Positions 11,730 through 28,188 of a stretch of DNA of 64,000 bases are shown one piece after another; position 1 is the stretch's first letter; every line of letters begins with the position of its first letter. Both the position numbers and the translations under genes were made by a program. The notes beneath the pieces are model-generated. The model did no database searches and was not told the origin of the DNA. It was given only the letters and a program-made list of their open reading frames with translations. Origin of the DNA: Chloroflexota bacterium (GTDB taxonomy: Bacteria; Chloroflexota; Anaerolineae; Anaerolineales; DRMV01); the NCBI GenBank assembly GCA_011322445.1, contig DRMV01000037.1:1-64000 (forward strand). The letters are read 5' to 3'.

Positions 11730-12683
11730 ATGACCGTTTGGGAGAATATTGACCCCGACCGCCCCGTGCTGGTGCTTGGCAGCGCCGCAGTAGATACGGT
11801 AGCCTACCCCCAAACGCCGCTGGAAGAGGGCGCAGCCGTGCCGGCGCACATGCGCACGGCCAGCGGTGGCGTGGCGCGCAATATTGCGGAGAACCTGGCG
11901 CGATTGGGGCAGCCGGTGGTTTTCCTTTCGGCCGTGGGGCGCGACGCGGCAGGCGACCGCTTGCTGGAAGAACTGGCCGCGCTGGGGGTAGACGTGCACG
12001 CGGTGCTGCGGGTGACCGATTACCCCACCGGACGCTATGTGGGGGTGCTGCGGCCGGAGGGTGGCCTTTACCACGGCTTTTACGATATGCGCATTAGCCG
12101 CTCGCTGACGGCCGACTATTTGCGCCATCATGCCAACCTTTTCATGGATGCTGCCGCGCTGGTGATGGATGCTAACCTGCCCAAGGCGACTTTGCGCACG
12201 GCTTTTGCTTTGGCCCGCAAAGCCGGTTTGCCGGTGACTGCCGACCCAACCTCGCCGCAACTGGCGCGCAACCTGCGCCGCTACCTGCCCCGCCTGGCGC
12301 TCATCACACCCAACCATCAGGAAGCCGCTGCATTGTTGGAGCGCCCGCTTGACCCCACCGATTTTGAGGAGGTGACGCGCGCGGCTAAGGACCTGGTAGC
12401 CCAGGGCGTTGGGCTGGCTGTGGTGACCCTGGCCGAGTTTGGGCTTTGCTACGCCACTTCCGATGGGCAAGGGCACCTGCCGGCCCTGCGTACCGAAATC
12501 CTCGACCCCACCGGCGCGGGCGATGCCCTGACCGCCGTGGTGCTTTACGGCTTGCTGCATGGCTTCCCGGTGGATGATGCGATACAATTGGGCATCTCGG
12601 CGGCATCCCTCGCTTTGAATGCCGAGGGCAATGTGCCTGCCGACCTTTCGCTGGAACGACTCTACGATCAACTGGTGGTGTAA
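11730..12683 (+). CDS. PfkB-family carbohydrate kinase, probable pseudouridine kinase
   Basis: A 317-residue ribokinase-fold enzyme that phosphorylates a sugar or nucleoside. It has the N-terminal VLVLGSAAVDTVAYP strand, the substrate-binding GGVARNIAENLARLG (PfkB signature 1) and DPTGAGDALTAVVLYG, the signature-2 anion hole with the catalytic Asp. The gene directly downstream, 10 bp away, encodes pseudouridine-5'-phosphate glycosidase, which makes pseudouridine the most likely substrate. This is inference from context; ribokinase or another specificity is possible. The ATG at 11730 has GAGAGG upstream and starts 2 bp after the preceding stop. Confidence 0.85.
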   Translation: MTVWENIDPDRPVLVLGSAAVDTVAYPQTPLEEGAAVPAHMRTASGGVARNIAENLARLGQPVVFLSAVGRDAAGDRLLEELAALGVDVHAVLRVTDYPTGRYVGVLRPEGGLYHGFYDMRISRSLTADYLRHHANLFMDAAALVMDANLPKATLRTAFALARKAGLPVTADPTSPQLARNLRRYLPRLALITPNHQEAAALLERPLDPTDFEEVTRAAKDLVAQGVGLAVVTLAEFGLCYATSDGQGHLPALRTEILDPTGAGDALTAVVLYGLLHGFPVDDAIQLGISAASLALNAEGNVPADLSLERLYDQLVV

Positions 12684-12693
12684 CGAGGAGTCT

Positions 12694-13632
12694 ATGGAAA
12701 ACCGTCAACTTCCCCCTGGAGTTCAAATCGCCCCGCATGTTGCGCGGGCGCTTTCGTTAAAGATGCCTGTGGTGGCGCTGGAATCGACCGTCATCACCCA
12801 CGGCTTGCCCAAACCCGACAACCTTTCACTGGCGCATGATATGGAAACTGCCGTGCAGAATGCCGGGGCGACGCCAGCCACGGTAGGGGTGTTGGGCGGG
12901 AAGGTCATTGTGGGGCTGGACGATGCCGAACTGGCGCGGCTTGCTGGTGTGGCTTCCCCTTGCAAAATCAGCGTGCGCGATTTTGGCCCGGCCATTGCCC
13001 AGAAAGCCGATGGCGGCACTACGGTGGCGGGCACGCTCTTGGCGGCGCGGCTGGCGGGCATTCGCGTGTTTGCCACCGGCGGTATTGGCGGCGTGCATCG
13101 CTGGCCGCCCCACGATGTTTCGGCTGACCTGCCTGTCCTGGCGAACAGCCCCGTCATTGTGGTTTGCGCAGGGGCAAAGGCCATTCTTGATCTGCCTGCT
13201 ACGCTGGAAATGCTGGAAACTCTCGCCGTGCCGGTGGTGGGCTATCAGACGGATGAATTTCCTGCCTTCTACTCACGGGAAAGCGGGTTGAAAACGCCGC
13301 ATCGCGCCGACACGCCCAAGGAGGTTGCCCAAATTGCCAAAGCCCACTGGGCCTTGGGGTTGCAAAGTGCGGTACTGGTGGTGGTGCCGCCCCCTGCTGA
13401 AGCAGCGCTGCCGCGTGAGCAGGTTGATGCGGCGATTGAGCAGGCGTTGCAGGAGGCCGAAGCCCGCGGGGTGCGCGGTCAGGCCAGTACACCTTTCTTG
13501 CTGGAACGGGTCAGCGAACTGACCGGCCACGCCAGTTTGCAGGCCAACCTGGCCTTGCTCAAGAACAACGCTGTCGTGGCGGCGCAAATTGCCCGGGCGC
13601 TCTTCCCTGCGCCGATGGCCTACATGGTGTGA
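12694..13632 (+). CDS. psuG: Pseudouridine-5'-phosphate glycosidase
   Basis: Reversibly cleaves pseudouridine 5'-phosphate to uracil and ribose-5-phosphate. The 312-residue protein matches the family from end to end: VVALESTVITHGLP near 24-37, then ADGGTTVAGTL and FATGGIGGVHR. CAGAKAILDLPATLE (active-site Lys) and VPVVGYQTDEFPAFY follow, and the C-terminal stretch is SLQANLALLKNNA. GAGGAG lies 5 nt before the ATG. With the upstream PfkB kinase it forms the standard two-step route for salvaging pseudouridine from RNA turnover. The next gene begins 7 bp downstream. Confidence 0.95.
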   Translation: MENRQLPPGVQIAPHVARALSLKMPVVALESTVITHGLPKPDNLSLAHDMETAVQNAGATPATVGVLGGKVIVGLDDAELARLAGVASPCKISVRDFGPAIAQKADGGTTVAGTLLAARLAGIRVFATGGIGGVHRWPPHDVSADLPVLANSPVIVVCAGAKAILDLPATLEMLETLAVPVVGYQTDEFPAFYSRESGLKTPHRADTPKEVAQIAKAHWALGLQSAVLVVVPPPAEAALPREQVDAAIEQALQEAEARGVRGQASTPFLLERVSELTGHASLQANLALLKNNAVVAAQIARALFPAPMAYMV

Positions 13633-22152: not shown

Positions 22153-23025
22153 TCATTCTTCGTCGTTGGGGGTGTTGGTGTCTTCTGCTTCGGGCTCTTT
22201 TTTCGCGCGCACCACCTTCTTGGCCCCCGCGGCGGCTGTGCCGAGCACTTCTGCGCTGGCCTTGGCCGTTTGGGCAGCGCCTTTCGCGGCTGCCACTGTG
22301 GTTTTCAGCCCACTTTTGGCCACTTCGGCAGCGCTTTTGGCGCTTTCGGCGGCAACCTTGGCGCCGGTTTGTGCCATTTTTGCCCCGGTTTTCGCCGCAC
22401 CGTGGGCGGCTTGCAGGCCCGCTTTGGCAACTTTGGATGCCACTTTCGGCGGTGCGGTGAGCGCGCCTTTGAGGGGCTTCTCGGCGATGTCTTCCAACAC
22501 TTCGCCGGTTTCGGCGAGGGTTGCGGCAGCGTCGGCGGTGGCTTGCAGGCCGGTTTGCAGGGCTTCGGTGCTGCCTTTGAGGGCAGTTTTGCCGGCTTGC
22601 CCCATTTGTCGGGCAGCCTGAGAGGCACTTTGGGCCGCGGTTTGGGCGGTGGCTGCGCCGGCTCGGGCCGCGGTTTGGGCTGCATTGGCGCTGGCCGAGG
22701 CAACCTCGGTCGCGGCTTTCCCTGCCGCAATGGCTTTGGCCTTGGCTAACGCCAGCAGTTCCTGCGGAATGCGCAGCAAAGGCTCGCCACGGCGGGCGCG
22801 CTCGGCGTTCATGCGCTCGTAAAGCCGCAGTTTGGCCTCCGGCGACAGCGTGCTGGCGGTGGCTTCCCGCGCTTTCTCGCGTAAGGCACGCATTTCTTCC
22901 ACAGCCTTCCGCAGCGTGGGCGAGTTTTTGAGCCGCGCTTCAAAACTGGCCCGCACTTTGGGGGGCAGCAGGCCGTCCAGGTAGTCGGCAATCAGTTTTT
23001 CGTCCGAAGGATTTTTAGGGGTCAT
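22153..23025 (-). CDS. Anti-sigma-like N-terminus joined to LEA-like Ala/Lys-rich helix
   Basis: Gene directly downstream (21 bp) of the ECF sigma factor. The first 55 residues (DEKLIADYLDGLLPPKVRASF, then RLKNSPTLRKAVEEMRALRE) have the look of an anti-sigma domain but lack the zinc-binding His/Cys set. From about residue 100 to 270 the protein is nearly all Ala, Lys, Thr, Gly, Gln and Ser, in amphipathic repeats such as AAKTGAKMAQTGAKVAAESAK. This is typical of LEA-like or apolipoprotein-like helices. No transmembrane segment is visible, unlike most anti-sigma factors. The tail is acidic. The 290-residue product starts at the ATG at 23025 with GGAG upstream; a GTG nine bases earlier is less well placed. 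Role as anti-sigma is inference from position. Confidence 0.7.
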   Translation of the reverse strand: MTPKNPSDEKLIADYLDGLLPPKVRASFEARLKNSPTLRKAVEEMRALREKAREATASTLSPEAKLRLYERMNAERARRGEPLLRIPQELLALAKAKAIAAGKAATEVASASANAAQTAARAGAATAQTAAQSASQAARQMGQAGKTALKGSTEALQTGLQATADAAATLAETGEVLEDIAEKPLKGALTAPPKVASKVAKAGLQAAHGAAKTGAKMAQTGAKVAAESAKSAAEVAKSGLKTTVAAAKGAAQTAKASAEVLGTAAAGAKKVVRAKKEPEAEDTNTPNDEE

Positions 23026-23046
23026 GGGGCACACTCCAGAGGGGGG

Positions 23047-23637
23047 TCAGGCGGCTGTCAAATGGTTGCTAAGGAAGGCGCGCAGGGCATTGCGGGCGCG
23101 ATGCACCCGGACCTTGGCGGCGGAAACGGAAATTTCCAGCGCGTCGGCGACTTCTTCCATACTCAGGTCTTCCATCTCGAAAAGCACAAAGGCCGCCCGC
23201 AGTGTGGGGGAAAGGGTTTCCAGCCCGGCGTTGATGAGGGCGTTGATTTCCTGGCGGTCCAGCCAATCTTCGGGCAGCACCGCTTGTGTATCGGGGAGCA
23301 GTTCGGCGGCGTCTTCACTCAGGTCTTCCAGTGAGTCGGTGGCGGCATCGGTTTTGCGTTGGCGTTTGCGCAGTATATCCAGCGCTTTGTTGGTGACGAT
23401 GCGGTAGAGCCACGAACTGAGGCGGGCCTGGCCCTGGAAATCGCCGATGCGAAGGTACACTGTCAGGAAGGCTTCCTGCATCGCGTCTTCGGCGTCGTGT
23501 GGGTTTTGCAGCAGACGGTAGGCGGTGCGGTAAACACCGTCGGCGTATTGCTCGATGAGCTGTTCGTAGGCGTCGGCTTCACCGCGACGCAGGGCGGCGA
23601 CCAGGGTAATTTCGTCAGGGTAAGGGAAAACGCTCAT
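23047..23637 (-). CDS. ECF-type RNA polymerase sigma factor
   Basis: A 196-residue sigma-70-family extracytoplasmic-function factor. Region 2 is visible at about 20-90 (YRLLQNPHDAEDAMQEAF, then LSSWLYRIVTNKALDILRK). Region 4 covers 125-185 (LSPTLRAAFVLFEMEDLSMEEVADAL, helix-turn-helix at VSAAKVRVHRAR). The linker of about 45 residues is acidic. Upstream is a promoter of ECF type (TGTAAC-N17-CGTC), which suggests that it transcribes its own gene. It is followed by the anti-sigma-like gene and preceded, after a terminator, by the MMPL transporter. The stress signal is unknown. Confidence 0.95.
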   Translation of the reverse strand: MSVFPYPDEITLVAALRRGEADAYEQLIEQYADGVYRTAYRLLQNPHDAEDAMQEAFLTVYLRIGDFQGQARLSSWLYRIVTNKALDILRKRQRKTDAATDSLEDLSEDAAELLPDTQAVLPEDWLDRQEINALINAGLETLSPTLRAAFVLFEMEDLSMEEVADALEISVSAAKVRVHRARNALRAFLSNHLTAA

Positions 23638-23680: not shown

Positions 23681-23726
23681 GACGCATTCCGGGGGATGTT
23701 GGTTACATGTTATTGGTTACATGTTA
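23681..23726 (-). promoter_or_regulatory. ECF-type promoter TGTAAC-N17-CGTC with tandem 14-bp repeat
   Basis: On the minus strand the -35 TGTAAC is the complement of 23702-23707, and CGTC is the complement of 23681-23684, with exactly 17 bp between. This matches known ECF consensus promoters such as those of Bacillus sigma-X and sigma-M. The -35 lies in a perfect tandem 14-bp repeat (TTGGTTACATGTTA at 23699-23712 and 23713-23726), so a second TGTAAC sits 14 bp upstream. The predicted leader is about 35 nt before the sigma ATG at 23637. Confidence 0.7.
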
Positions 23727-23786: not shown

Positions 23787-26700
23787 TTATGCTTTGTGCC
23801 TGACCCGCTCGGCCAGCAGGCGGAACAGCCCGCCGTGGCCGATGGGGTGTTTGGCCGGCCACCAGTTCCAGCGGCCGAGCACGGCGGCAATGGAAGGCAC
23901 CAGCACGGCGCGCACGATGAAGGTATCTAACAGCACGCCCATAGCAATGGCAGCCCCGATCTGGAAAAGGCTGGTGATGGATGAGGTCATCAACGCGCCG
24001 AACGTGCCTGCCAGGATGATGCCCGCGGAGGTGATGACCCCGCCGGTATAGGCCGAAGCACGCAGCACGCCTTCCCGCACGCTGCCGCGCTTTTCTGCTT
24101 CTTCCCACAGGCGGGAAGTCAGGAAGATGTTGTAATCGGCGCCCAGGGCCACCAGCAGGGTGAAAATCACCACCGGGATGGAGTAGTTCACCCCCGGCGC
24201 ACCCATCAATTTCTGGAACACAAGCACGCTCAGCCCCATCGTGCTGCCGTAGGAAAGGAGCACGGTGAGGATGAGGTAGAGCGGCGCAACCAGACTGCCC
24301 AGCAGGATGATGAACACGAGAAGCACGCCCACGGTGGTCGCAGCCATCACTTTGGGAAAGTCTTCGCTTACGATGGTGCGGATGTCGTACACCTGCATGA
24401 TGGGGCCGGTGACGTGGGCCTGCAAGCCTTGGGCTTGGGCGGCTTCCTGGGCGGCGGTGCGAATGCGCCCGGCGGTTTCAAGGGCCTGCTCGCCATAGGG
24501 GTCGCCTTTGACCAGCACTTGAATTTGCGCTGCGCGGTCATCTTGGCTCAGGAAGGTGCTGAGCAGGGTGCCTGCTTCGGGTTGCTGCTCGACGAGCGCG
24601 TTGGGGAGGAAGTAGGCATTGGCGGGCAGCGCATCGGCTAAGGCGTTGAGGTCGTGGGTGAGCGCTTTGACGTCCGTTTCCAGCGCGGCGATGGCCTGCT
24701 GGGCTGCTGCGGTATCCATGCCGGGCAGCGCAGGCGGCACAAAGCGGGCATCGCGCCCCTCAAAGCGCTTTGCCAGCGTCTGGATGCCGGTTTTCAGAGC
24801 CGTGGTGGCTTGTTGCAGTGCCTCGGCTTGTTGCTGCGCCGCGGGAAGTTGCATCAACGGCGGGTAGGAGAACGGCGCAGGCTGCCCGGCGAAGGTTTGA
24901 GCCAGTGTGCTGAGGTCCTGGCTCAGACCCTGTAAGGCCGTTTGCAGTGAAGCCACTGCTTGCTGGACCTGTTGGGCTGAGGCTTCGTTGCCTTCCGCCT
25001 GGGCCTGCTGCAAGGTTTGCTGGATGACCTGGATGGCCTGCAGGCGGGTGAGGGCATCGGCGTAAGCAGGCTGAGCCTGAATTTGCGGGTAAGCCTTGCC
25101 CAGGGCGACGAGATAGCCACCCACCACCGTGAGCGGGCTTTCCGCCTGTTGCCCCTGGGGGGTGAACAGGGTTTGCAGGGCCGCGGGGTTGTTGAGTTGG
25201 GCTGCCGTTTTGTCGAGGGCCTGGGCGAGCATTGCCAGTTGAGCATCCGCCTGTTGCATTTTCTCGGCCTGCGCCATGCCCTGCTGAAGCGTGGCGAGGG
25301 CGCGTAAGGCTTGCTGGTAGCCGGGGGCGTTTTTGACTTCGGGGTAAGCCTGCGCCAGGGCTTGCAGATAGGCCTCGAGCCCTTGTAGCCCTTCGGCGGC
25401 GTTCGCGGAGGGGGCGCCCGGCTTCAGGCTGTCCATGTTTTGGGCGAGCAGGTTCAATTGGGTGCTGACTTGCAACCCTTGCATCAAGTTATCCAGCCGG
25501 GTGCGCAGGTCCTTGAGCCGTTGGCGGGCGTCGGCGTATTCCGGCTGTTGAGCGGCTTTGGGGAAGGCCTTTCCGAAGTCATCGAGATAGGCTTCCAGGG
25601 TGTGCAAGGCCGCGGTGGGGTCGCCTTTGGCCTGGGCCAGCGCGTGCGGGTCGGCCTGGAGCCCTTTTTGCAGGCCCGAAGCCAGGGTGCGGAGCTGGTC
25701 GGGGGCAAGGAGGGCCTGTTCCAGTTGAGGCTGTTCGCCGCCGGTGGGATGTACCACGCTGCGCACTTTGGCAACACCATCAACTTGCGCCAGGGCCTGG
25801 TTCACCGCAGCGATGCGTTCCAGCCCCTGCGGCGAGCGCAGGTCGTGGTCGCCATCCAGCACCACGATGATCGGCATCATCTCGCCGGTGTTGAAGTGGG
25901 CTTTGATGAGTTCGAAGCCCTGCCGCGAATCGGCGCTGGCGGGAATTTCGTTCAAGATGTCGAAGGAGCGGTGCATTTGTGGCAGCAGGATGTAAGGCAG
26001 CAACAGTACCACGGTGGTGACCACGGCAATCAGGCCGGGTTTGGCGGTGATGGCATGGGCCACGCGTTCCCAGAAGGGGGAGCGATGCTCGCTTTGCTGG
26101 TCGCGAATTTTCCGGTGGAAGGGCCAGAAGAGGTAGGGCCCCAGCAGCGAAAGCAATGCCGGGGTGAGGGTGATGGAGGCCAACCACGCCATAGCCACCG
26201 CGAGCGCCATTGCAGGGCCCTGGGCGCGGGTCATCCCGAAGCGGGCGACCATCATGCTCAAAGTGCCGATGACCACGGTGGCGGCGCTGGCCGTGAGTAC
26301 TGGGGCAATGCGGGTCACGGTTTCGCGGTCGGCTTCCTCACGATCCTGGTTGGGGCGGCGGGAAACTTCCTCGCGGTAGCGCGAAATGAGGAAGAGGGCG
26401 TAATCGGTGCCGACTCCGAAAATGAGCACCACCAGGAAGGCGTCCATCATGGTGGAAACTTTCATGATGTTGGCCTTGGCAAGATAGCCCAAAATGCCGC
26501 GACTGGTGAGGTAAGCCACCCCAATGGTGACCAGCGGCACCCCTGCGGCAATCGGCGCACGATAGACTAACAAAAGCACCACAATCACCAGCAGGATGGT
26601 TGCCCAGGTGGTGCTGTCGACGCTTTTGAGGATATGGTGCATCAAGTCGCGCCCGATGGGCGTTTGCCCCGTGAGATGAACGGTGAGGTTTTGGGGGCGA

Positions 26701-27167
26701 GTTTGCTGGATGTGGGTGCGAATTCGGTCAACGGTCAGGTTGGCTTCATCGCTGTAAGGCTGCGACTTCAAGTCCACCTGCATGAGCATGGCCTGGCCGT
26801 CGCTGCTGAGCAAGATGGGCTTCATTTCTGGATGGTTGAACACGGTGGTCACTTGCTGGACGTCGGGGTCGCGCTGCAGCCAGGCGGCCAGTGCTTTGGC
26901 GTAGGCGCGATCCGCGTCGTCAAGGCCGTGGGGGTTGGCCAACACCACGAGGGTGTCGCTCCCCGAGGCCATTTTGGGGAATTCCCGTTCCAACACTTTT
27001 TGCGCGCGCAGCGAAGGGGAATCTTTTGGCAGGAAGTCGGATTCGTTGCTGATGCCGACTTTTGAAAGCGGTGGGGCCCACAGCACCATGGCTGCCGCCA
27101 CCGCCAGCCAAAAGACGACAATGCCGACTTTGTAGCGGGTGACGAAACGCGCAAGGGATTTGAACAT
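23787..27167 (-). CDS. MMPL/RND-family membrane transporter
   Basis: A 1126-residue export protein of the MMPL type. It has one N-terminal membrane helix (residues 10-30) and an extracytoplasmic domain. A first membrane bundle covers about 180-370 (GVGTDYALFLISRYREE, proton-relay-type motif). A second, long extracytoplasmic region runs from about 400 to 915, and a second bundle (920-1090) carries ALGADYNIFLTSRLWEE. The second extracytoplasmic region contains about 400 residues of Gln/Ala/Leu-rich helix (LAQAL, LQQG types), predicted to form long coiled hairpins. Such proteins usually export lipids or other hydrophobic compounds. The ATG at 27167 has AGGAGG six bases upstream. It follows a winged-helix regulator on the same strand by 90 bp, so it is probably under its control. 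Confidence 0.9.
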   Translation of the reverse strand: MFKSLARFVTRYKVGIVVFWLAVAAAMVLWAPPLSKVGISNESDFLPKDSPSLRAQKVLEREFPKMASGSDTLVVLANPHGLDDADRAYAKALAAWLQRDPDVQQVTTVFNHPEMKPILLSSDGQAMLMQVDLKSQPYSDEANLTVDRIRTHIQQTRPQNLTVHLTGQTPIGRDLMHHILKSVDSTTWATILLVIVVLLLVYRAPIAAGVPLVTIGVAYLTSRGILGYLAKANIMKVSTMMDAFLVVLIFGVGTDYALFLISRYREEVSRRPNQDREEADRETVTRIAPVLTASAATVVIGTLSMMVARFGMTRAQGPAMALAVAMAWLASITLTPALLSLLGPYLFWPFHRKIRDQQSEHRSPFWERVAHAITAKPGLIAVVTTVVLLLPYILLPQMHRSFDILNEIPASADSRQGFELIKAHFNTGEMMPIIVVLDGDHDLRSPQGLERIAAVNQALAQVDGVAKVRSVVHPTGGEQPQLEQALLAPDQLRTLASGLQKGLQADPHALAQAKGDPTAALHTLEAYLDDFGKAFPKAAQQPEYADARQRLKDLRTRLDNLMQGLQVSTQLNLLAQNMDSLKPGAPSANAAEGLQGLEAYLQALAQAYPEVKNAPGYQQALRALATLQQGMAQAEKMQQADAQLAMLAQALDKTAAQLNNPAALQTLFTPQGQQAESPLTVVGGYLVALGKAYPQIQAQPAYADALTRLQAIQVIQQTLQQAQAEGNEASAQQVQQAVASLQTALQGLSQDLSTLAQTFAGQPAPFSYPPLMQLPAAQQQAEALQQATTALKTGIQTLAKRFEGRDARFVPPALPGMDTAAAQQAIAALETDVKALTHDLNALADALPANAYFLPNALVEQQPEAGTLLSTFLSQDDRAAQIQVLVKGDPYGEQALETAGRIRTAAQEAAQAQGLQAHVTGPIMQVYDIRTIVSEDFPKVMAATTVGVLLVFIILLGSLVAPLYLILTVLLSYGSTMGLSVLVFQKLMGAPGVNYSIPVVIFTLLVALGADYNIFLTSRLWEEAEKRGSVREGVLRASAYTGGVITSAGIILAGTFGALMTSSITSLFQIGAAIAMGVLLDTFIVRAVLVPSIAAVLGRWNWWPAKHPIGHGGLFRLLAERVRHKA

Positions 27168-27257
27168 GGTCAACCTCCTTTGGGGGATGGGGGCATCCGA
27201 AAAAAACGAAAATAAGCGACAAAAAAAGGAAGCGGAAGAAAGACCGCTTCGATTTGT

Positions 27258-28043
27258 TTATTTGGCTGTTTGGTTGCTTTGGTGTGGCGTCGCGGTGGCC
27301 GGGTCGGGAGTTTCCTCGCTTTCACTGCAAATCTGCCGCACCACTTCGCGCGCGAAGGCCGCCAGCGAGCGCTGGTTTTCTTCCGAAAGCGTTTGCAATG
27401 TGCGTTGGTATCGGTCTGATTCGCGCAAAATGGCGCTGGCCAGGCGGCGGTTGACCCGCTCGGCGACTTCCAGCGCCAGGCTGAGGCCGGTCAGCGCGCT
27501 GAGGCCCGGCTCGCCAGGCAGCCCAATGCGCAAGAGGCGGCGGCGCAGGCGTTTGCCGCGAATCCCCTCCAGCCATGTGCGGAGGGCGAGCAGGATAGCG
27601 GTCGTGAGTTCCGCCATGTAGAGCAGCGGTCGGCGGCGCTCTGGCAGGCGCGCCAGCAGGTCGGCCAGCAGGTTTTCGTAATCGCTGGACTCACTGGCGC
27701 GCAACTGCGCGAGGATTTGCGCCTTGATGGCTTCCCAATCTTCGGTTTCGGCCGTGGGGCCGGCAAGTTTGGCTAACGCCTCGTCGGCTTGCGGTGTGGG
27801 GGCGAAAACCACGCTGGCGCGGCCGGGCCCGCGCTTGCCTTCCGGCAAGCGAAATTCCGAGCGTGCCAGACCGCGCTCTTCCAGCAGGCGGAGCATTTCG
27901 TAAGCCGTCACTTTGCCGATGCCCAAACGCCGGGCCACTTCGGTATAGTGAATGGGTTCCTGCGCCTCTTTGTAGAGGTCGAGGAAGCGGCTTAGAAATT
28001 CCTGCTGGCGGCGGGTCAGTGGGCGTTGGGTCTGGGAAGCCAT
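27258..28043 (-). CDS. Winged-helix transcriptional regulator
   Basis: A 261-residue regulator. The N-terminal domain (about 8-65) has the helix-turn-helix IHYTEVARRLGIGKVTAYEMLRLLEERGLA, followed by a basic wing EGKRGPGR. The remaining 190 residues are helical with no clear ligand-binding fold; a hydrophobic stretch (MAELTTAILLALRTWLEGI) could be a dimer helix. The gene is transcribed toward the MMPL transporter 90 bp downstream, the usual arrangement for a local repressor and its efflux target. Its promoter has a near-consensus sigma-70 sequence with repeated TCCGAA at the start site, suggesting autoregulation. The inducer is unknown. Confidence 0.8.
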   Translation of the reverse strand: MASQTQRPLTRRQQEFLSRFLDLYKEAQEPIHYTEVARRLGIGKVTAYEMLRLLEERGLARSEFRLPEGKRGPGRASVVFAPTPQADEALAKLAGPTAETEDWEAIKAQILAQLRASESSDYENLLADLLARLPERRRPLLYMAELTTAILLALRTWLEGIRGKRLRRRLLRIGLPGEPGLSALTGLSLALEVAERVNRRLASAILRESDRYQRTLQTLSEENQRSLAAFAREVVRQICSESEETPDPATATPHQSNQTAK

Positions 28044-28052
28044 GATATAAAC

Positions 28053-28099
28053 TCCGAAAATTCCGAATAAATTGTAAGTCCCCCTCACTGCAATGTCAA
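28053..28099 (-). promoter_or_regulatory. Sigma-70 promoter TTGACA-N17-TACAAT with operator-like repeats
   Basis: On the minus strand TTGACA (complement of 28094-28099) and TACAAT (complement of 28071-28076) are exactly 17 bp apart. The predicted start site is near 28064. TCCGAAAATTCCGAA at 28053-28067 overlaps it, with two TCCGAA units 9 bp apart. A repressor bound there would block initiation. The regulator's ATG is at 28043. Confidence 0.8.
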
Positions 28100-28150
28100 G
28101 TGTTTTGGGCGAGGTTGCCAGGGCGCTGGTTTGGGTTTTGCCCTTGGCAA

Positions 28151-28188
28151 AGCACGCCAAAGCCGTGCTTGTGGGGCTTTGGCGTGCT
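28151..28188 (-). terminator. Perfect 14-bp hairpin after tyrS
   Basis: AGCACGCCAAAGCC (28151-28164) and its complement (28175-28188) enclose a 10-nt loop, starting 26 bp past the tyrS stop. There is no U tract on the minus strand, so termination efficiency is uncertain. It lies about 50 bp upstream of the winged-helix regulator's promoter. Confidence 0.65.

Follow-up and report, generated by a model that had tools for sequence, protein, structure and literature searches.

The region of interest lies in a 64,000-nucleotide stretch of a Chloroflexota genome (contig DRMV01000037.1, positions 1 to 64,000; hereafter the window), and contains two neighboring genes read from the same strand. The product of the upstream gene matches Sigma70_r2 (3.2e-20), Sigma70_r4_2 (1.4e-12) and TIGR02937 sigma70-ECF (4.8e-31, above the cut-off). 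Sigma-70 regions 2 and 4 are its only domains, as found in the ECF class, and on this content the protein is an ordinary ECF sigma factor. The downstream gene can be read from two start codons. ATG 23025, which gives a product of 290 aa, is most likely the start because it leaves a gap of 21 bp after the sigma gene, has GGAG 8 bp upstream and agrees with the starts of the relatives; GTG 23034, the choice of the gene-caller, gives 293 aa and is possible but less likely. All features are collected in Table 1, where positions of the domain and tail residues are in the 293-aa numbering, as they are throughout the text. In 11 of the 18 relatives' loci the sigma and anti-sigma reading frames overlap by 4 bp, which suggests translational coupling of the two genes. 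Upstream of the sigma gene in the window, on the same strand, there is an MMPL transporter gene with a winged-helix (IclR/TrmB-like) regulator (23787-28160), neither of which is seen beside the pair in the relatives.

Table 1. Features of the sigma/anti-sigma locus and of its candidate target. Coordinates refer to the window unless a contig of the window's genome (G000) is named.
Feature	Coordinates	Strand	Remarks
ECF sigma factor gene	23047..23637	minus	196 aa; Pfam and NCBIfam matches to sigma-70 region 2, region 4 and ECF
Anti-sigma factor gene	22153..23025	minus	ATG start; class I anti-sigma domain and long helical tail; from ORF, NF052375 match and orthologues
Class I anti-sigma domain	22780..23001	minus	residues 12-85; zinc ligands lost
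Tail helix A (predicted)	22456..22764	minus	residues 91-193; AF2 helix in both runs
A-P-P helix break, tail center	22447..22455	minus	residues 194-196; between the predicted helices
Tail helix B (predicted)	22198..22449	minus	residues 196-279; AF2 helix; Lys/Arg stripe on narrow polar face
Acidic C-terminus, predicted unstructured	22156..22197	minus	residues 280-293; pLDDT ~40
Putative ECF-type promoter TGTAAC-N17-CGTC	23681..23707	minus	70 bp before sigma ATG
Same motif before exported-protein gene	G000:C31:24313-24342	minus	also in most relatives
Exported heptad-repeat protein gene	G000:C31:23677-24255 (= L146:2672-3256, minus)		unlinked to the pair; same promoter type

The N-terminal 83 aa of the downstream product match the NCBIfam anti-sigma model NF052375 at 5.2e-6, below its curated cut-off. 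The match to zf-HC2 is weak (0.0093), while the N-terminal domains of 19 of the 23 family members match that family. Used as a query, the family profile matches the solved chains 3hug_B (4e-7), RsiW (9e-4) and DdvA (1.1e-3), the first of which we take to be an anti-sigma factor, RslA. The AF2 model places helices at residues 9-19, 25-37, 39-60 and 65-82, so that the protein has the N-terminal helical domain, encoded next to a sigma gene, of the class I anti-sigma factors (ASDI). It contains neither HxxxCxxC nor CxxC, and is thus not a ZAS. Nor is there a transmembrane helix; Kyte-Doolittle means over 19 residues peak at 0.96, and the peak stays below 1 in each of the 10 members checked, so these are not proteins of the RskA/RsiW type. 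A preliminary description of the window had placed a sigma gene here, followed after 21 bp by an anti-sigma candidate free of zinc ligands and transmembrane segments and carrying an unusual tail rich in Ala, Lys and Thr, and it was right in each of these particulars.

The zinc ligands have a varied history within the tailed family. HxxxCxxC is kept in 14 proteins, four lack only the His, and the window protein and two close relatives retain no ligand at all. From this pattern, the ancestral domain is of the HxxxCxxC zinc type and the window protein has lost its ligands recently. Ligand loss in the family thus reads as recent and recurrent, and no part of the design; since both the window protein and relatives have lost ligands, the zinc site is dispensable while the tail is retained.

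Approximately 20 orthologues whose tails are complete or almost so are found in genomes of the Anaerolineae, and the anti-sigma frame is therefore not a chance ORF. Tailed orthologues occur in 10 of the 18 genomes of the same taxonomic family, in one genome (G006) from a different family of the order and in about 10 further genomes among 346 drawn from the class. In a sample of 400 genomes from the phylum the window genome alone gave a tailed match at 1e-12, but few genomes of the carrying class were in that sample and absence elsewhere is only indicative. A contig scan returned one relative, the contig of G096. An ECF sigma gene lies immediately upstream of the tailed gene wherever the contig reaches far enough. 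The preliminary description had named conservation of the pair in other Chloroflexota as a check, which these orthologues satisfy, and persistence of the tail without the sigma gene as a finding that would speak against it; no such case is seen where the contig extends that far. The tail is not seen detached from the anti-sigma domain except at contig ends. At one locus (L131:6169-6516, on G052:C103) there is an orphan anti-sigma domain lacking both a tail and a neighboring sigma gene.

The nearest sigma factors with other partners (~42% identical) adjoin soluble proteins of 82-100 aa, nearly all with a complete HxxxCxxC. These short partners span the residues up to ~85 of the window protein, and so the tail would have been joined to a soluble anti-sigma domain that was already complete. 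In a midpoint-rooted tree with some long branches, a single clade (100/99) holds the 19 sigma factors whose partners are tailed, apart from 20 with short (80-100-aa) partners. Membrane-anchored non-zinc anti-sigma factors of the RskA/RsiW type also occur in these genomes. Against profiles of anti-sigma factors the window protein scores weakly enough that one might regard it as a helical structural protein that shares the operon by accident and has no anti-sigma function. We consider this extremely improbable, given that in the relatives this domain bears complete ZAS signatures, that a sigma gene adjoins the tailed gene in every contig long enough, and that short ZAS proteins are the partners of related sigma factors.

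The tail of the window protein comprises 189 residues, of which ~32% are Ala, 11% Lys and 9% Thr. It aligns with those of the relatives almost without gaps over ~180 residues, with a conserved center P-x-K-x-A-x-x-A-P-x-K-x-A-x-K in which A194 and P195 are nearly invariant in A1, as is P195 in A2. Full-length identity to the window protein is 31-67% among orthologues and ~31-38% for distant members. The similarity between distant tails exceeds that of plain shuffles by 11-19 s.d., that of block shuffles keeping 18-residue segments by 5-8 s.d., and that of shuffles preserving helical phase by 6-13 s.d. Because composition-, block- and phase-preserving shuffles are all exceeded, the likeness of the tails reflects homology and more than composition, and chance alignment of low-complexity sequence is ruled out.

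The tail had been described initially as LEA-like, disordered and desiccation-responsive, and here we part from the preliminary description. The composition invites such a reading, being Ala/Lys/Thr-rich and of low complexity with a long stretch devoid of aromatic residues. Yet none of the 23 members matches an LEA family of Pfam even at E 0.1. The GRAVY is neutral (0.00 in the window tail and -0.41 to 0.02 in relatives), and in 10 of 10 members checked the tail falls on the folded side of the boundary in the charge-hydropathy plot. Helical periodicity and length are strictly conserved, the alignment is almost gap-free around a conserved central motif, and the period is 3.6 residues and not a clean 11/3. 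The protein does not classify as LEA, and we regard a disordered, desiccation-responsive tail as very improbable.

Hydrophobicity in helix A has a single sharp periodicity of 99.5° over 97 residues, a strength attained by none of 500 shuffles (0/500), and in helix B of 100° over 83 residues, again reached by none of 500. The same period is found separately in each of 20 members (99.0-101.5°). These data describe a tail of two straight helices. Along each runs a single unbroken apolar face, made up of small and aliphatic residues, and the charged face is narrow. In helix B two angular bins opposite the apolar center are 54-64% Lys/Arg, while helix A has acidic residues along one flank and basic residues along the opposite one. 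The mean hydrophobic moment is modest, at 0.24-0.39, and the Lys/Arg residues lie at the center of the polar face and not at its edges, which differs from the textbook class A lipid-binding pattern. The C-terminal end is acidic in most relatives too. Both AF2 runs give the same limits for the tail helices with low pTM (0.34 and 0.28), the second run, of two sequences, being the poorer (pLDDT 55).

No specific relative of the tail emerged from sequence or fold searches. Foldseek against the PDB gave nothing at E <=0.001, and the PDB sequence matches of the tail are designed helical proteins. The VIA-align matches, with Z up to 10.6 and so below the level meaningful for long helices, were all to helical hairpins of a generic kind (chemoreceptors, Smc, PspA/Vipp1, F-BAR and flounder antifreeze). 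One could nevertheless view the tail as a self-zipping helical hairpin or an oligomerization rod that makes no contact with the membrane, and sets the stoichiometry of the anti-sigma factor or docks another protein. The conserved A-P-P break between helices of similar length is in keeping with this, as are the wide uncharged arc of small residues (Ala, Gly, Ser and Thr) and the opposed acidic and basic flanks of helix A; the model resembles the hairpins of chemoreceptors, Smc and the flounder antifreeze protein 4ke2, though no more closely than long helices do in general. However, the period is 3.6 residues and not the 3.5 of a heptad, with a power in helix A of 7.8 at the peak against 0.4 at the heptad angle of 102.9°, and pTM is low. 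A left-handed heptad coiled coil is rejected on the position of the peak (99.5-100° and not 102.9°), and a hairpin or rod free of membrane contact strikes us as doubtful, if a serious contender.

A second alternative makes of the tail a Lys/Ala-rich helix similar to histone H1, binding nucleic acid or another polyanion and tethering sigma close to DNA or to RNA polymerase. The Lys/Arg stripe along helix B would suit such a role, and the tail has a net positive charge in 10 of 10 members checked. But in the window protein the net charge is only ~+13 over 189 residues and is followed by the acidic end, and profile searches of the tailed family found no DNA-binding family with support. We think this improbable.

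The conserved neighborhood points to what the pair may control. The sigma gene is directly preceded in 16 of 19 loci by a gene, normally the first of the operon, for an exported protein of ~190 residues. A signal peptide is seen by inspection, with a lipobox in some paralogues, and the protein has heptad repeats of the type DDIGxMADRIGEMADRILWTExQIGVMADRIVESEYLI for which no Pfam or NCBIfam family fits. In three genomes, those of the window (G000), G026 and G063, the gene is unlinked to the pair. Even so, every well-covered genome with the tailed anti-sigma has the exported-protein gene. In samples of the class (346 and 337 genomes) the tailed anti-sigma was counted in 12 genomes, once as a short version, and the exported protein in 11; 10 genomes have both. 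The corresponding p of ~1.6e-16 treats genomes as independent, and the association is partly phylogenetic. The exported coiled-coil protein is thus probably the target of the sigma/anti-sigma switch, as judged from linkage and shared promoter sequence. The tail is shortened to ~60 residues at L120 (on G279:C192), the sole locus with three copies of the exported protein joined in one 561-aa reading frame. At four loci of one family (L114, L115, L117 and L119; f29) a ferrochelatase-like gene, named by reading its sequence, is divergent from the operon.

Upstream of the sigma factor's own operon there is a motif with the AAC-type -35 element expected for an ECF sigma factor, and it is conserved in the relatives. 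[TC]GTRAC-N17-CGTCY is present in 18 of 19 regions upstream of the operon or of exported-protein genes, compared with 20 of 38,000 shuffled regions. Further loci bearing the motif are L111, L126 and L175, while it is absent upstream at L118 and L120. A loose pattern with a spacer of 16-18 matches twice in the window against 0.04 expected. The strict pattern TGTRAC-N16-18-CGTCYWA occurs exactly twice in the 2.63-Mb genome, before the sigma gene and before the exported-protein gene, but its reversed control also occurs twice, and the evidence for the promoter therefore lies in placement and conservation and not in the count. The motif is kept before both units in all three genomes with a split operon (G000, G026 and G063). 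From this phylogenetic footprinting we infer that the operon and the exported-protein gene share a regulon, and the window sigma factor would read TGTAAC-N17-CGTC, although a different ECF sigma factor may recognize this promoter. With two mismatches allowed the reversed control outnumbers the motif in the window's genome, and so the regulon cannot be extended safely. The -35 box upstream of the sigma gene is doubled, TGTAACC being found twice, 14 bp apart (23702-23721). TGTAAC-N18-CGTC also occurs at the start of a pseudouridine-5'-phosphate glycosidase-like gene, named by reading the sequence (12679-12706); its spacer differs and it overlaps coding sequence, and it is probably a chance match. 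So too, probably, is a third match in the genome (TGAAACC, C33:14234), 20 bp before a histidyl-tRNA-synthetase-like ATG.

Taken together, the data can be accommodated by a dedicated, autoregulated ECF switch, to which we give about an even chance of being correct. The N-terminal class I domain, derived from a soluble zinc-type anti-sigma, would hold the sigma factor inactive in the cytoplasm, as its family and the gene order suggest. The 190-residue tail, in place of the usual transmembrane segment and sensor domain, would be the sensing or localizing part; the zinc site has decayed repeatedly but the tail has not, and this speaks for the tail as the part that senses. It would most likely lie on the inner face of the membrane or on another anionic surface, or else be folded as a helical hairpin. 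Since the conserved target is exported, the signal is presumably one from the envelope, and such stress may alter through the tail the grip of the anti-sigma domain on the sigma factor. Freed sigma factor would then transcribe its own operon, giving autoregulation, and the gene for the exported heptad-repeat protein, both from TGTAAC-N17-CGTC, and the exported protein would act in the envelope. A more specific version is a three-component envelope-sensing module. In this the two straight tail helices of a soluble anti-sigma, each ~13-15 nm long, would bind the inner membrane surface and sense the state of lipid or envelope directly, with neither a transmembrane helix nor intramembrane proteolysis, and the freed sigma factor would be devoted mainly to one exported coiled-coil family, in the Anaerolineae only as far as searched. 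We advance this version tentatively, and consider it rather unlikely as it stands.

It had been supposed that the canonical partners of ECF sigma factors are membrane-bound. That is part of the story, but solubility is predicted for ~35% of class I anti-sigma factors and ~28% of the soluble ones lack a zinc motif (PMC7406223), and because of this a soluble protein without zinc is not new in itself. What differs is the conserved tail together with the three-gene module. With the soluble zinc-type class I proteins (RsrA, ChrR, RshA and the short 82-100-aa ZAS of Anaerolineales) the window protein shares the N-terminal helical domain, the adjacent sigma gene and the absence of a transmembrane helix, and most tailed relatives also keep HxxxCxxC. 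It differs in its 190-residue amphipathic tail, in the loss of ligands, and in having no cupin (as in ChrR) or other known sensor domain. With the RskA/RsiW type it shares the N-terminal class I domain and a C-terminal extension expected to sense, but without a transmembrane helix it offers no usual substrate for intramembrane proteolysis. SigX-CfrX of Pseudomonas aeruginosa likewise has a soluble anti-sigma proposed to report the state of the envelope or membrane; there the small protein CfrX works together with CmpX and OprF (PMC8999054), whereas in the tailed family the putative sensor is fused and no channel gene is conserved. The same review also lists among soluble ZAS partners of unknown mechanism those of ECF271, whose example is a Chloroflexi bacterium. 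ECF270 and ECF271 have in common with our pair a soluble ZAS partner and an occurrence in Chloroflexi, and the passages describing them there mention neither a tail nor an exported gene.

The tailed family provides a defined case for how soluble anti-sigma factors lacking a zinc switch may sense their signals. The promoter motif, the very small predicted regulon and the uncharacterized exported family make heterologous tests feasible for a phylum with few genetic models. The exported family also includes lipoprotein versions with Pro-rich linkers (L147, L149, L150 and L151), each preceded by the ECF-type promoter with a 17-nt spacer and CGTCTAA.
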